A DNA stretch of 64,000 nt from Mannheimia sp. USDA-ARS-USMARC-1261 (GTDB lineage: Bacteria > Pseudomonadota > Gammaproteobacteria > Enterobacterales > Pasteurellaceae): assembly GCF_000521605.1 (NCBI RefSeq), contig NZ_CP006942.1, positions 1,612,001-1,676,000 of the forward strand, in the 5' to 3' direction. Shown one piece after another: positions 152 to 44,715 of this stretch (position 1 is the first letter of the stretch; the number at the start of each line of letters is the position of its first letter). The translations under genes were made by a program, and so were the position numbers. The notes beneath the pieces are model-generated. The model had not been told where the DNA came from, made no database searches, and was given only the letters and a program-made list of their open reading frames with translations.

Positions 152-237
152 ACAAGCGGTCAATTTTTGATAATTTTTTGCATAAATGGCTAATGTGCCG
201 ATAATTTGCAAAATATTTATAAAATTTGACCGCTTGT
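152..237. repeat. Inverted pair of Apl-type uptake signal sequences
   Basis: ACAAGCGGT at 152-160 and ACCGCTTGT at 229-237 face each other across an AT-rich spacer. This is the core 9-mer of the Apl-type DNA uptake sequence, which recurs dozens of times in the window. Inverted pairs such as this lie between genes and may also form stem-loops. Confidence 0.8.
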
Positions 238-246
238 TTATTAAAA

Positions 247-18672: not shown

Positions 18673-19884
18673 CTATAAATAACTCAGTGGTAATGCTACT
18701 AAATTTTCACTTAAATAAAGTTTAGTCGGATATTGGTTAATTATCACTCCCTGCCCGAGCGTCCATTCAGGCGAAAGCGGACTTAATAAATCAAAACTTT
18801 TCGCCATTTTTTTATTTGGGCTTGCAGTAACTTTAATTTCCACCGGATAAAGTGTGCGGTTATATTCGATAATTAAATCAATCTCTTTTTGATTAGTATC
18901 CCGATAAAAATAAAGAGGTGGTTCAATGCCTTGATTATTAAAGGATTTAATTACTTGGCTTACGACAAAAGTTTCAAAAAACTGACCGCTTTTCGCCCCA
19001 CTCGAAATAGTTTCAGGGGTAAGCCATTTAGTTAAGTACGCCATTAACCCCGTATCTAAAAAATAGACTTTTGGGGTTTTTATAGCCCGTTTCAAATGGT
19101 TGTTATGATAAGGCTGCAACAAATAAATAATGCCCGAAGTTTGTAAAATTGCTACCCAACGTTTAATCGTTTCATTCGATACACCAACCTCTTGGGCGAT
19201 ATTGCTGTAATTCAGCAGCTCGCCACTACGAGAGGCAATCGACACCATAAAACGGGTAAAATCTGTCGTGCTGGCAATATTGGTTAATTGGCGAACATCT
19301 CGCTCAATATAAGTGGCGACATAAGAACGGTAATAAATTTCCCAGTCGGTTTCTTGGGCATACAACCGTGGCATATCGCCTTTGTGAATAAGCTGCCAAA
19401 TATTTTCCGGCTGTTTTAATTCTTGCTCACGGGCGAGCAAATAATCACTGTTTGGCACAAAAGGCTGATTAAAACTCACCCCTAGAATTTCACGTAAGGA
19501 AAGCCCTTGCAATTTTAAAATCGCTATCCGCCCGGCAAGGGTCTCGCTCACATTTTGCATTAACTCAAATGCCTGTGAACCTGACAGCAAAAATAAACCG
19601 TTTTGCTGTTTTCGGTCAATTTCTAGTTTTAACAAAGAGAAAATTTCAGGCACATACTGCACCTCGTCTAAAATCAACTTCCCCTGATGATTTAAGAAAA
19701 ACAGCCGAGACTCATCTTTTGCTTGTTGCAATAGCATAGGATCATCAAAAGTAATATATTGATAATCTTGCCCGATATGTTGTAGCAGTGTTGATTTGCC
19801 TACCTGCCTTGCCCCTGTTACCAAAATCGCCGGAAATTGTTTAACTAAACGTGTTACTAATGATTGCATTTGGCGAGAGATCAT
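18673..19884 (-). CDS. AAA_14/DUF4143 ATPase of unknown function
   Basis: 403 aa. The N-terminal P-loop ATPase has Walker A VTGARQVGKSTLLQ (about residues 22-35), Walker B KLILDEVQYVPE (near 70), and an LSGSQAFEL sensor-like motif near 100. A winged-helix-like segment (NYSNIAQEVGVSNETIKRWV) lies near residues 220-239, and the C-terminal DUF4143 domain has FYRDTNQKEIDLIIEYN, which resembles a restriction-nuclease-like core (D...E-I-D). Proteins of this type are common, patchy and of unknown role. A good GGAGGGTAA site precedes the ATG. Its upstream region holds three 35-bp palindromes at 52-bp pitch, suggesting autoregulation (inference). Confidence 0.85.
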   Translation of the reverse strand: MISRQMQSLVTRLVKQFPAILVTGARQVGKSTLLQHIGQDYQYITFDDPMLLQQAKDESRLFFLNHQGKLILDEVQYVPEIFSLLKLEIDRKQQNGLFLLSGSQAFELMQNVSETLAGRIAILKLQGLSLREILGVSFNQPFVPNSDYLLAREQELKQPENIWQLIHKGDMPRLYAQETDWEIYYRSYVATYIERDVRQLTNIASTTDFTRFMVSIASRSGELLNYSNIAQEVGVSNETIKRWVAILQTSGIIYLLQPYHNNHLKRAIKTPKVYFLDTGLMAYLTKWLTPETISSGAKSGQFFETFVVSQVIKSFNNQGIEPPLYFYRDTNQKEIDLIIEYNRTLYPVEIKVTASPNKKMAKSFDLLSPLSPEWTLGQGVIINQYPTKLYLSENLVALPLSYL

Positions 19885-19905
19885 TTACCCTCCTGAAATA
19901 AAATT

Positions 19906-20044
19906 AAGTTTGATTTAACATAGCATATTGAATTGAACTTAATTAATAATGAATTTTTAGTTTAATTCAATATAACATAGTTAATTAAACTTAACAACAA
20001 ACCAAAATTAAGTTTAATTCAACATTATATATTGAATTAAACTT
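19906..20044. repeat. Three 35-bp palindromes repeated at exactly 52-bp pitch
   Basis: Half-site AAGTTTAATTCAA and its inverse TTGAATTAAACTT occur as three inverted pairs: 19906-19918/19928-19940, 19958-19970/19980-19992 and 20010-20022/20032-20044, with one or a few mismatches in the first two. Every pair has a 9-bp spacer, so half-sites are 22 bp apart, and successive palindromes start 52 bp apart. A weaker half-site-like AATTTTGATTGTA follows at 20061. The array fills the gap between the ATPase gene and yheS and looks like a repeated operator. Confidence 0.8.
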
Positions 20045-20128
20045 AATTTTCATCTCAAACAATTTTGATTGTATTAAAATTTACTATGCTAAAATATGCA
20101 AAATTTTTAACAAAACAGACCGCTTGTA

Positions 20129-22066
20129 ATGATATTTTTTACAGATTTAATTTTAAAACGAGGACATTCCGTCCTGATTGAAAACAGCTCCGCCACCATT
20201 CATACGGGGCAGAAGGTAGGTTTGGTGGGTAAAAACGGGTGTGGAAAATCCTCTCTTTTTGCCTTACTTAAAAATGAGCTACAGCCTGAAGGCGGCGATG
20301 TTTCACTCCCAAAAAATTGGGCAATTTCGTGGGTAAATCAAGAAACACCTGCGTTAGATATTTCCTCTCTTGATTATGTGATTCAAGGTGATAGAGAATA
20401 CACAAAATTAATAGCAGAGCTTGATGAAGCGAATGCAAAAAATGACGGCAATCGCATTGCCACTATCCACTCCCATCTCGACACCATTGATGCGTGGACA
20501 ATTCAAGCCAGAGCTTCTACCTTGCTCAACGGCTTAGGCTTTAGCACCGAGCAATTACAACTGCCTGTGAAATCTTTCTCGGGCGGTTGGCGTATGCGTT
20601 TAAATCTCGCTCAAGCGTTGATTTGCCGTTCCGATTTATTGCTACTCGATGAACCAACCAACCACTTAGATTTAGATGCCGTGATTTGGCTCGAACGCTG
20701 GCTCACTAACTATCGTGGTACGTTATTACTGATTTCCCACGACCGTGATTTTCTTGATCCGATTATCGACCGAGTGATTCACATCGAACACCAAAAACTC
20801 AATGAATACACAGGCAATTACACCTCGTTTGAAATTCAGCGAGCAACTAAAATCGCACAACAAAATGCCGCTTATCAGCAACAACAACGAAAAGTTGCTC
20901 ATTTACAGAGCTTTATTGACCGTTTCAAAGCCAAAGCGACCAAAGCCAAACAGGCTCAAAGCCGTATTAAAGCATTGGAAAAAATGGAACTTATCGCCCC
21001 TGCGTACGCAGATTCACCGTTTGAATTTGAATTCCGCCCACCACTTGCCTTACCAAGCCCATTGCTGATGATGGAAAAAGTGAGTGCAGGTTACGCAGAT
21101 AAAACCGTGCTGGAATCGGTGAAATTGAATTTAGTGCCCGGCTCTCGAATTGGTTTGCTTGGCAGAAATGGGGCGGGTAAATCCACGCTGATTAAATTAC
21201 TGGCGGGCGAAATTCTTCCCCAAAATGGTGATGTACAACTGGCAAAAGGCGTTCAACTTGGCTATTTCGCCCAACACCAAGTGGATACCTTGCGTTTTGA
21301 TGAAAGCCCACTTTGGCATTTGCAGAAAATCGCACCGGAAAAAACTGAACAAGAATTGCGTAACTACTTGGGCGGCTTTGATTTTAAAGGCGATAAAGTC
21401 GTGCAAGCGGTACAATCCTTTTCGGGCGGTGAAAAAGCCCGTTTAGTTCTTGCCTTAATTGTGTGGCAACGCCCTAATCTTCTGCTATTGGACGAACCGA
21501 CTAACCATTTAGATTTAGAAATGCGACAAGCTCTTGTTGATGCTCTGACGTATTATGAAGGATCGCTGGTAGTGGTTTCGCACGACCGCCACTTGCTCCG
21601 CAGCACTGTGAACGAATTTTACTTGGTACACAATCACAAAGTGGAAGAATTTAAAGGCGATTTAGACGATTATCAAAAATGGTTGAACGAGCAAAATGCC
21701 TTAGCGAATGAGCCGAAATCGGTACTTGCAAAAAATTCGGAAAATGCAACCGCTTGTGAGCCGACAGCCAATGAAAACAGTGCGGCAAACCGCAAAGAGC
21801 AAAAGCGTTTAGAAGCCGAACTCCGCCAACAAACCGCCCCGCTGCGTAAAAAAATCACGCAGTTGGAAAAAGAATTGGAAAAAGCCTCTGAAAAACTGAA
21901 TAAGCTAGAAGAAATGCTTGGCGATAGCCAGCTCTACGAGGCAGAAAATAAAGCCAAACTCACCGAAACTCTTGCTCAACAAGTTGATACTAAAAAACAG
22001 GTGGAGGAAATTGAAATGCAGTGGTTGGAGGCACAGGAAGAGTTGGAAGGGATGTTGGCAGACTAA
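20129..22066 (+). CDS. yheS: ABC-F family ATPase YheS
   Basis: 645 aa, a cytosolic ABC-F protein with two ATPase domains and no membrane part. ABC-F proteins act on ribosomes; YheS has a proposed role in relieving stalled translation. Walker A GLVGKNGCGKSSLF (about 30-43) and GLLGRNGAGKSTL; signatures SFSGGWRMRLNLAQ and SFSGGEKARLVLA; two LLLDEPTNHLDL Walker B motifs. A charged coiled coil ends the protein. The N-terminus MIFFTDLILKRG matches the family. No Shine-Dalgarno is visible: a USS core (ACCGCTTGT) ends 2 nt before the ATG. Confidence 0.94.
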   Translation: MIFFTDLILKRGHSVLIENSSATIHTGQKVGLVGKNGCGKSSLFALLKNELQPEGGDVSLPKNWAISWVNQETPALDISSLDYVIQGDREYTKLIAELDEANAKNDGNRIATIHSHLDTIDAWTIQARASTLLNGLGFSTEQLQLPVKSFSGGWRMRLNLAQALICRSDLLLLDEPTNHLDLDAVIWLERWLTNYRGTLLLISHDRDFLDPIIDRVIHIEHQKLNEYTGNYTSFEIQRATKIAQQNAAYQQQQRKVAHLQSFIDRFKAKATKAKQAQSRIKALEKMELIAPAYADSPFEFEFRPPLALPSPLLMMEKVSAGYADKTVLESVKLNLVPGSRIGLLGRNGAGKSTLIKLLAGEILPQNGDVQLAKGVQLGYFAQHQVDTLRFDESPLWHLQKIAPEKTEQELRNYLGGFDFKGDKVVQAVQSFSGGEKARLVLALIVWQRPNLLLLDEPTNHLDLEMRQALVDALTYYEGSLVVVSHDRHLLRSTVNEFYLVHNHKVEEFKGDLDDYQKWLNEQNALANEPKSVLAKNSENATACEPTANENSAANRKEQKRLEAELRQQTAPLRKKITQLEKELEKASEKLNKLEEMLGDSQLYEAENKAKLTETLAQQVDTKKQVEEIEMQWLEAQEELEGMLAD

Positions 22067-31083: not shown

Positions 31084-32346
31084 TTATTTAACTTTTAAAC
31101 TAAAATCAAGCGTTGGAGATTTAAACATATTATAGACTGCATCTGATGGTGCAGGCGGCACTTTTCTGGTTGCCACAATTGCACTTACCGCTGCATCACA
31201 CACTGCTTTATCGCCACTAACTACTTGATAATTAGTAATTGTACCATCTCGACTTAAGAAAATCTTAACATCGCATTGTTTTCCTGCAAAGCTTGGATCA
31301 ACACGATATTTAGATTGAATTAATTTCTTAATTCGCTGACCGTATGCATTACCATCGACATTCGCACCTTGACCAAGACCACTTGTACCGCCTGATCCTT
31401 GAGAACCCGATGAGTTTTTATTACCGCCTTTGCTTGAACCACCGCCAATGTCGCCACCATCTAGGAAATCGTCAAGTGCTTTGTTATTCTTCGCTTGAGC
31501 AGCTTTTGCTTCAGCAGCGGCTTTTGCTTTAGCCTCTTTCTCTGCTTTTTCTTTAGCTTCTTTTTCAGCTTTTGCTTTGGCTTCTTTTTCTGCTTTTTCT
31601 TTAGCTTCTTTTTCGGCTTTCGCTTTAGCCTCTTTCTCAGCTTTTTCCTTAGCTTCTTTCTCTGCTTTTTCCTTAGCTTCTTTCTCTGCTTTTTCCTTAG
31701 CTTGTTTCTCTTTTAGCTCTTTCTGCTCTTGTAATTTCTTTTCAGCTTCAGCTTTTTTTTGTTGCTCAAGTTTCTTCTCTTGGGCTTCTTTCGCTTTTCT
31801 TTCTTCTTCAGCTTGTTTAGCAGCAGCTTCCAAACGCTTAGCTTCTGCATCTGCTTTTAATTTTGCTGCTTCAGCTGCTTTTTTACGTGTAGCCTCTTCG
31901 GCTGCTTGTTGCTTTTTAATTTCTTCTTGTTTCGCTTGCTCTTGCTTTTGCTGTTCTTGAAGTTTTTGCTGCTCTTGCAACTTTTGCTGACGTTGCTTTT
32001 CTTGAATTGCCGCTAATTCAGCTTTCTTTTGTTGCTCAATTTCTTCCGGAGTTGGCTTTTCTTCCGCTTCTTCAACAGTTTCTTCAGGCTCTTCTCTAGG
32101 CTCTACCGTTGGCTTAGCTGGTTTAGAGCCCTTTTTCTCCGCCATCAATTGCCCATATTCCGCCGCCACTTGCCCGGTATCAACCATTACGGCTTCGAAG
32201 CTGTCGCTATCACCGCCACTACCTCCAGCCGCTGCTAATTCCGTTTTGGTGAAAAGAGACCCAAGCAATAATAATCCAATCAATAATATATGTAATAAGA
32301 TCGAAATAATAACTGCAAGCTCTAGTCTATCTTGTTGAGATTTCAC
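31084..32346 (-). CDS. tolA: Cell envelope integrity protein TolA
   Basis: 420 aa. One N-terminal transmembrane helix (about 10-35) anchors it to TolQR; a long Lys/Glu/Ala helix (about 90-285) spans the periplasm and contains near-perfect [20 protein letters not shown] repeats between about 220 and 275. A Gly/Ser-rich linker follows, and the C-terminal domain ([38 protein letters not shown]) is the TolB/Pal-contacting part. Length varies among strains because of the repeat; long antisense frames over it are composition artefacts. Confidence 0.95.
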
Positions 32347-44450: not shown

Positions 44451-44634
44451 TCGGATGAAGGTAGCTGGAGAGAAATGAATTAACATTTCACCGACGAGGT
44501 AAACTCTTTCAGGTGCAACTAAGTTGCGAGGACTGTTACTGGACGAACCCTTGGAGAGAGCTGATGAAAAATCAGCCGCCGAAGGCGAAAATGCAGCAAT
44601 GTGTGAAACGCTCAGGCAAAAGGACAGGGGAGAA
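44451..44634 (+). promoter_or_regulatory. Tandem glycine riboswitch upstream of the AGCS symporter
   Basis: Two successive glycine-aptamer-like units. Unit 1 (about 44451-44533) has GGAGAGAAATGA, CACCGACGAGGTAAACTC, TTTCAGG and GAGGACTG. Unit 2 (about 44540-44632) has GGAGAGAGCTGA, CAGCCGCCGAAGGCGAAAAT, AAACGCTCAGGCAAAAGGAC and AGGGG. These are the conserved gcvT-motif elements. It precedes a predicted alanine/glycine:cation symporter, as known in Haemophilus. The linker and order fit the cooperative two-aptamer type. Expression platform not resolved. Confidence 0.9.
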
Positions 44635-44646
44635 AAGTTATACAAT

Positions 44647-44715
44647 ACAAGCGGTTGTTTTTTGCTGATTTTTTGCTGATTTTTTGCAAAAAATTTCCGT
44701 TTTTTAACCGCTTGT
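44647..44715. repeat. Inverted uptake-signal pair between riboswitch and symporter start
   Basis: ACAAGCGGTT from 44647 and AACCGCTTGT to 44715 pair perfectly over 10 bp. The loop contains a tandem TGCTGATTTTT repeat and TTTTTTGCAAAAAA. Its place between aptamer and start codon makes it a candidate part of the expression platform, but no T tract follows. Confidence 0.7.

Follow-up and report, generated by a model that had tools for sequence, protein, structure and literature searches.

Three palindromes upstream of a Mannheimia DUF4143 ATPase gene as the putative operator of a self-repressing, likely mobile gene

Three palindromes lie between a DUF4143/AAA_14 ATPase gene and a YheS-like ABC-F gene in the stretch of Mannheimia chromosome analysed here, which is 64 kb long and is called the window below (Table 1). 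We propose, with high confidence, that this array is the operator of a self-repressing ATPase and is bound by the protein's own winged helix. Comparison of relatives reveals linkage of the site to the gene, its position at the promoter, its spacing and the covariation of its core with the recognition helix, and these features make it very probable that the ATPase itself binds the site, as an autorepressor; from them we infer binding, repression and cooperativity. In the mechanism that we envisage, the winged helix would bind the palindromes as a dimer or a larger oligomer. The proximal palindrome of relatives has its dyad where transcription of the gene is expected to begin, so that the bound protein should block transcription, a negative autoregulation; in Pasteurellaceae, a second copy (here also a third), placed about whole helical turns away, would hold neighbouring AAA+ dimers side by side on one face of the DNA. 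Such cooperativity is plausible, as is movement of the gene, and both are less certain than the operator reading.

Table 1. Features of the ATPase locus (window positions).
Feature	Position	Strand	Details
AAA_14/DUF4143 ATPase gene, 403 aa	18673..19884	-	PF13635 E 2.2e-46, PF13173 E 2.2e-27
Helix-turn-helix, residues 226-249	19138..19209	-	model helices 226-233, 237-249
Palindrome 1, nearest ATPase start	19907..19939	.	11/15 pairs
Palindrome 2	19959..19991	.	13/15 pairs
Promoter-like TTGTTA-17-TATATT	19969..19997	-	consensus scan; second hexamer inside palindrome 2
Palindrome 3, distal	20011..20043	.	14/15 pairs
YheS-like ABC-F gene, locus neighbour	20129..22066	+	NCBIfam PRK10636.1, 1091 bits

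An earlier note on this sequence had described three palindromes starting at 19906, 19958 and 20010 at an exact 52-bp pitch, and this was borne out: the start-to-start distances are 52 and 52 bp, and Tandem Repeats Finder gives the array a score of 172. The unit that it proposed, two 13-bp half-sites around a 9-bp spacer, is exact for the third palindrome and mismatched in the first two, as the note itself had stated; comparison of relatives showed that the unit is better written as two 15-bp arms around 3 bases, a 33-bp core, and the alignment of the repeats extends it to about 45 bp. When the 244-bp region was shuffled 2000 times with its dinucleotides preserved, no single palindrome exceeded 13 pairs, a value reached in 19 of the 2000. 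Three evenly spaced palindromes with at least 12 pairs each appeared in 0 of 500 shuffles, a test stricter than the observation, in which unit 1 has 11 pairs. These data exclude a chance origin of the array. The rest of the window holds 14 other places with at least 12 pairs, none with the array sequence, and the palindrome is not scattered through the genome, where the only matches to its pattern with up to 3 mismatches are these three places. Regular spacing of three copies is also what an iteron array of a replicon would display, an alternative that the earlier note had raised and that was not supported. The locus is chromosomal, the four genes scanned around the array with Pfam (DUF4143 ATPase, ABC-F, MarC and LprI) are not replication genes, and in most relatives one or two copies are present, at the ATPase promoter, leaving this reading with a negligible probability.

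The ATPase comprises an AAA+ domain, a winged helix and a C-terminal domain with D336 and E349-x-K351, and its AlphaFold2 model, built from 76 sequences, has a pLDDT of 93.1. The Walker A/B residues G24, R26, Q27, G29, K30, D73 and E74 are invariant in 76 sequences. Residues E334, D336, E349 and K351, conserved in at least 90% of the 76, would fit a PD-(D/E)xK nuclease, and the protein has a weak match to a CARF_PDDEXK profile (E 0.0094). The Pfam scan of the ATPase returned AAA_14, DUF4143 and a sub-threshold HTH_28 only, with no transposase domain; a REP/RAYT or IS200/IS605-like element, considered as a candidate, was rejected because that scan showed no HUH/Y1 transposase. NCBIfam profiles contained no family for the ATPase, and solved structures searched by sequence gave no match. 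By structure, the AAA+ domain and winged helix superpose on STAND/NLR ATPases of the SSO1545, PABY2304, RPP1 and CED-4 types (2qen, Z 15.2, 248 residues aligned, rmsd 5.0; 2fna_A, Z 14.3, 248, 4.6; 7dfv_A, RPP1, Z 13.7, 233, 4.3; 4m9s_A, CED-4, Z 12.9, 242, 4.8). The common fold shows no function. Unlike these proteins, the window ATPase, with its 403 residues, has no long sensor repeat domain, and its winged helix appears to read DNA. The protein also matches the PADLOC profile PDC-S01 over its whole length (E 4.5e-105). According to the available part of the source, PDC-S01 is a phage defence candidate detected 29,494 times in Bacteria and 9,986 times in Archaea, the fourth most common defence across all prokaryotes, and most such candidates await validation (PMC12988326). 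That part of the source mentions no operator for PDC-S01 (PMC12988326), and the palindrome described here is limited to a subfamily. Our literature search of open-licence papers turned up no work testing a PDC-S01 protein and, apparently, no description of this palindrome.

Three findings go beyond the earlier note: the gene stands at many loci, solo palindromes occur in gene-less relatives, and the site belongs to a family that extends to other phyla with changed arms. The 80 relatives compared include Neisseria, Moraxella, Acinetobacter, many Firmicutes and two archaea. A first pass covered the 79 with enough upstream DNA: a site of 15-3-15 geometry with 12 or more of its 15 positions paired stood no more than 130 bp upstream in 53 of them, compared with 1.7% of 1465 control windows. 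A wider set, overlapping the first pass and searched in a 47-position window before the gene, gave at least 11 of 15 pairs in 72 of 103 loci, many of them mutually related (22/25 in Pasteurellaceae, 50/78 outside), against 1.9% of 1889 control windows; the other 31 of the 103 have no palindrome of 11 pairs. The duplicate loci L218, L219 and L242 were dropped, as was L241, whose coordinates identify it with the L195 gene; L164 and L165, which carry one gene, were both kept in the counts. In 42 of the 78 loci outside Pasteurellaceae, between 12 and 30 bp separate the end of the site from the start of the match. The arms read AGTTTAATT in Pasteurellaceae, Neisseria, Moraxella and Acinetobacter, and CGGCTAAAAT, CGACTAAAAT and others elsewhere. 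When two overlapping locus sets were pooled and binned by identity to the window protein, the site was present in 25/31 loci at 60% or more, 27/39 at 45-60%, 22/46 at 38-45%, 7/10 at 30-38% and 2/31 below 30% or unaligned. We conclude that the palindrome is a feature of a subfamily, mostly of proteins more than about 38% identical to the window protein, and not of all DUF4143 proteins. One archaeal genome of 1.6 Mb (G185, that of L176; loci L289-L308) has 48 DUF4143 matches; 20 stretches were taken from it and 14 examined, and one of the 14 reached 11 pairs or more, with a sequence that does not resemble the family. This set is an expansion of another branch without the palindrome, and indicates that the palindrome is not general to DUF4143.

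Within Pasteurellaceae, the palindrome pattern occurs in 38 of 140 genomes and 18 of 43 genera, and a reversed control pattern in 6. An ATPase match was found in 28 of the 140 genomes, and 26 have an orthologue, whole or broken, of at least 65% identity. Just upstream of its start, 23 of these 26 carry at least two palindromes, two carry one and one carries none. The proposal of the earlier note that a repeated dimer-binding operator precedes the DUF4143 ATPase is supported by this linkage, by the promoter position in distant relatives and by the near-whole-turn spacing. Neither of the two observations that the note had named as refuting it, random scatter of the palindrome through the genome and a lack of conserved spacing at orthologous loci, was made. 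Spacing is conserved among the orthologues: the pitch is 52 bp in three loci (Mannheimia), 62 bp in two, 63 bp in fifteen, 64 bp in two and 73 bp in one, so that all 23 multi-palindrome loci fall at 52, 62-64 or 73 bp, near 5, 6 or 7 turns of 10.5 bp. Because few independent events underlie these values, they are suggestive of helical phasing of the Pasteurellaceae palindromes. Outside the family, doubles were found at 72 bp (L181) and, off phase, at 60 bp (L250, L252) and 71 bp (L170). The GAT-type cores of Pasteurellaceae are usually asymmetric, with ACGAT in one arm and AAGAT in the other, and are mostly oriented alike relative to the gene; a plain homodimer site would have no need of such asymmetry. 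At the Mannheimia locus, the ABC-F gene is present in the window genome and in six of six congeners, whether or not the ATPase gene is there, and the congener M. haemolytica DSM 10531 (G001) has the ATPase gene at the same place. The ATPase gene is broken in L092, L113, L114 and L115, that is, in G001 (M. haemolytica DSM 10531), G029, G061 and G161, which fits frequent loss.

The position of the site relative to the promoter differs in clarity between two classes of arms. In the CG class, the promoter consensus is TTGA, 17 bp, then TAWAAT filling arm positions 5-10; both hexamers match sigma70 in at least 4 of 6 bases at the exact places in 24 of 44 sites, and the second alone in 34. Transcription in this class should start on the palindrome dyad, as expected of a repressor site. 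In the AG class (23 sites), to which the window locus belongs, TTTAAT in the left arm probably serves as the -10 element, and the -35 element is weaker. The promoter of the window is itself weak and is not at the consensus place in palindrome 1. Besides the site listed in Table 1, the consensus scan found a second promoter-like site, ATGAAA-18-TATAAT, inside palindrome 3, and the signal is weak, five such sites being found where 2.5 are expected. This geometry also bears on whether the palindromes are RNA hairpins or terminators, as the long paired arms with A and T tails of many distal and solo copies might suggest. We did not adopt this reading, since with transcription expected to begin at the dyad the relatives' mRNA would contain one arm only. 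Moreover, a terminator scan found none at 19800-20200, and some loci, including the one in the window, are flanked by divergent genes and so have no need of a terminator; hairpins or terminators are accordingly very improbable. An Rfam gathering scan of the window found nothing at the array, the only hits being one glycine riboswitch and two tRNAs.

If the ATPase reads the site, its recognition helix and the core of the palindrome should change together. In the AlphaFold2 model, residues 236-238 stand at the start of the recognition helix, 237-249. Covariation was computed over 67 loci with a clean site, a set selected for having a palindrome and taken without L196 and L172 (sites unlike the family) and one short protein; 358 variable columns were compared with core positions 11-14, with the arm class fixed. 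Residue 238 ranked first of the 358, 237 second and 236 fourth; columns 153 (third) and 294 (fifth), which lie outside the helix-turn-helix, also rank high. G at core position 13 is found in 59 of 62 half-sites of D238 proteins vs 5 of 72 of the others. With one sequence per 80% cluster (34 clusters), the D238/G13 table reads 11, 2 / 1, 20 (Fisher 3e-6). The CG class alone gives 6, 0 / 1, 19 (Fisher 3e-5), and the AG class alone, which holds the window, gives 5, 2 / 0, 1 and is not significant (p 0.375). The rule holds across unlike arms, for example in Pasteurellaceae and Lachnospiraceae. None of 13 further loci with at least 10 pairs, outside the covariation set, has D238, so that they bear on the D238-G13 rule in part only. 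By unconditioned mutual information, the whole helix-turn-helix is not enriched (Mann-Whitney p 0.16 corrected, 0.92 raw); conditioned, the recognition-helix window 232-246 (14 variable columns) is modestly enriched (p 0.038). The covariation at residue 238 supports the suggestion of the earlier note that the ATPase itself is the putative binder.

We then turn to the distribution of the gene and of its palindromes. A crude count, which treats accessory genes at one locus as different (L105, L106 and L114, for instance, are all uvrB-pepP), gives 22 neighbour pairs among the 26 Pasteurellaceae loci; uvrB, pepP, queC, dps, infB and rbfA are the names that we presume for the translated neighbour genes. 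Four loci that are filled in some genomes carry one solo palindrome in gene-less relatives: queC-dps (G073 filled, G076 solo), marC-abcF (window, G006 and G001 filled, G002-G005 solo), uvrB-pepP (G061, G066 and G067 filled, G016, G063 and G065 solo) and infB-rbfA (G145 and G011 filled, G143 solo). At queC-dps and marC-abcF, the solo corresponds to the distal palindrome of the filled site, which in the window is palindrome 3. In G066 and G067, the palindrome equivalent to the uvrB-pepP solo is found some 300 bp past the gene, and in G061 it is decayed; the infB-rbfA solo of G143 appears to be what was left of the proximal copy when the gene was lost. Overall, 16 solo sites were inspected in 15 genomes, 12 of them in genomes without an orthologue; five weak matches with 3 mismatches (G003, G007, G063, G143, G156) look like chance and were left out of the solos.

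That solo palindromes survive in genomes without the ATPase gene counts against the autorepressor reading. In four gene-less Mannheimia species, the solo arms stay recognisable, with 34-37 of 42 positions identical between species, vs 32-56% identity, gaps counted, in other intergenic sequence; the contrast is smaller on the ABC-F side, because the 80 bases adjoining the solo there are 60-87% identical. Arm changes are matched on both sides in G002 and partly in G005, and not in G004. Either loss of the ATPase gene was recent and repeated, or the solo is useful in itself, perhaps at the ABC-F promoter. Such persistence could also be explained if a separate dimeric regulator, rather than the ATPase, bound the palindromes. 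We regard this as improbable: the site accompanies the ATPase gene across phyla, its core follows the ATPase's own recognition helix, and the 26 Pasteurellaceae loci have no other constant neighbour gene.

In six groups of near-identical genes that are followed by differing DNA, similarity ends between -1 and +13 bp relative to the stop codon: L156/L158; L162 vs L163/L166; L201/L208/L209; Acetobacterium L182/L183/L184; Neisseria L149/L151; and the Moraxella bovis plasmids L211/L212. The first four groups also have a nearby left end, some 65 to 105 bp ahead of the start and near the -35 element. Taken together, the many loci, the loss of similarity at the stop codon and the solos in gene-less relatives suggest that the ATPase gene is likely a mobile single-gene unit. 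Among 72,556 plasmid records, 317 carry DUF4143 proteins of any closeness, 30 of these at 60-80% identity; among 50,697 phage records, 6 carry them.

These observations raise the question of whether the palindromes are also, or mainly, movement sites, in which case a unit made of promoter, proximal palindrome and open reading frame would insert beside a palindrome or bring one along, the solos being its targets or scars. Along with the many loci, the solos at loci filled elsewhere, their distal position at queC-dps and marC-abcF and the ends of similarity near the stop codon, palindromes at the 3' end would agree with this: the gene in L181 is flanked by palindromes identical over 48 bp, L143 has a 3' palindrome 4 bp past the stop, and in G145 the stop is overlapped by one. 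Against it, most genes have no 3' copy, the G143 solo resembles a proximal remnant, and the Pfam scan found no transposase domain. In addition, the upstream DNA is common within the Neisseria pair and within the Moraxella pair, and in two groups the flank returns further on. L163 and L166 have their flanks in common, and in L162 the L163 flank is met again 1.8 kb along; L183 and L184 have a common flank 0.1 and 1 kb after the gene, reappearing about 0.9 kb further on. Insertion after the gene explains the break equally well in these two groups. A role in movement is thus possible and is put forward tentatively, at a probability well below that of the operator.

Several further observations were made at these loci. 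L118 (G063:C2), an 8.7-kb contig with inverted uvrB- and pepP-like pieces and two palindromes, probably represents a copy of the chromosomal locus that arose in assembly, given its uvrB- and pepP-like genes, and was not used as evidence. A gene of cluster C30, about 278 aa and apparently membrane-bound, stands beside palindromes in L107, L118 and L124, and a pair of small genes (clusters C60 and C61) does so in L106 and L114. The Chloroflexi-type loci L195 and L200 have both flanks in common, and their DUF4143 genes have no listed similarity above 78%; this is perhaps one locus occupied twice.

The operator reading places the ATPase beside known systems that act through inverted repeats. BrxR and CapW are reportedly WYL-domain repressors acting at defence-locus promoters through inverted repeats. 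The likeness lies in a defence gene, here a candidate one, controlled at its promoter in this way; the difference is that those regulators have genes of their own, whereas here the DNA-reading helix appears to be part of the effector-like ATPase. Also comparable are toxin-antitoxin operons and restriction-modification C proteins, small mobile units that repress their own promoter through palindromes. In contrast, the window unit is one gene, for an AAA+ ATPase with a nuclease-like C-terminal domain, not for a small regulator. The proposed autoregulated mobile gene is of a known kind, and it belongs to a very abundant protein family. A bolder reading, which we consider unlikely, takes the gene of this subfamily to be a selfish mobile element of some 1.3 kb, in addition to or in place of being a defence gene. 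Its NLR-like product, ending in a nuclease-like domain, would use the winged helix to read the palindrome at the gene's own start site; the element would insert beside palindrome copies and leave solos, and the palindrome would be both operator and landing site. More broadly, a subfamily of PDC-S01 proteins gains a promoter, a predicted DNA target and a predicted contact, between residue 238 and half-site base 13. The winged helix of a STAND/NLR-like ATPase, our results suggest, can be a working DNA reader, raising the question of whether some defence genes called by profile are mobile elements.

Elsewhere in the window, 40 bases before the ABC-F start (within 20080-20128), with ACCGCTTGT, match many places in Pasteurellaceae genomes, probably owing to the DNA uptake signal sequence. 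Arrays of 15-, 18- and 24-bp tandem repeats at 31498-31989, with eight copies of the 24-bp unit at 31520-31711, are perhaps a low-complexity coding stretch. The glycine riboswitch aptamer lies at 44541-44637 (Rfam RF00504, 70.4 bits) and is followed, at 44658-44687, by 2.7 copies of the 11-bp tandem repeat TTTTTTGCTGA.
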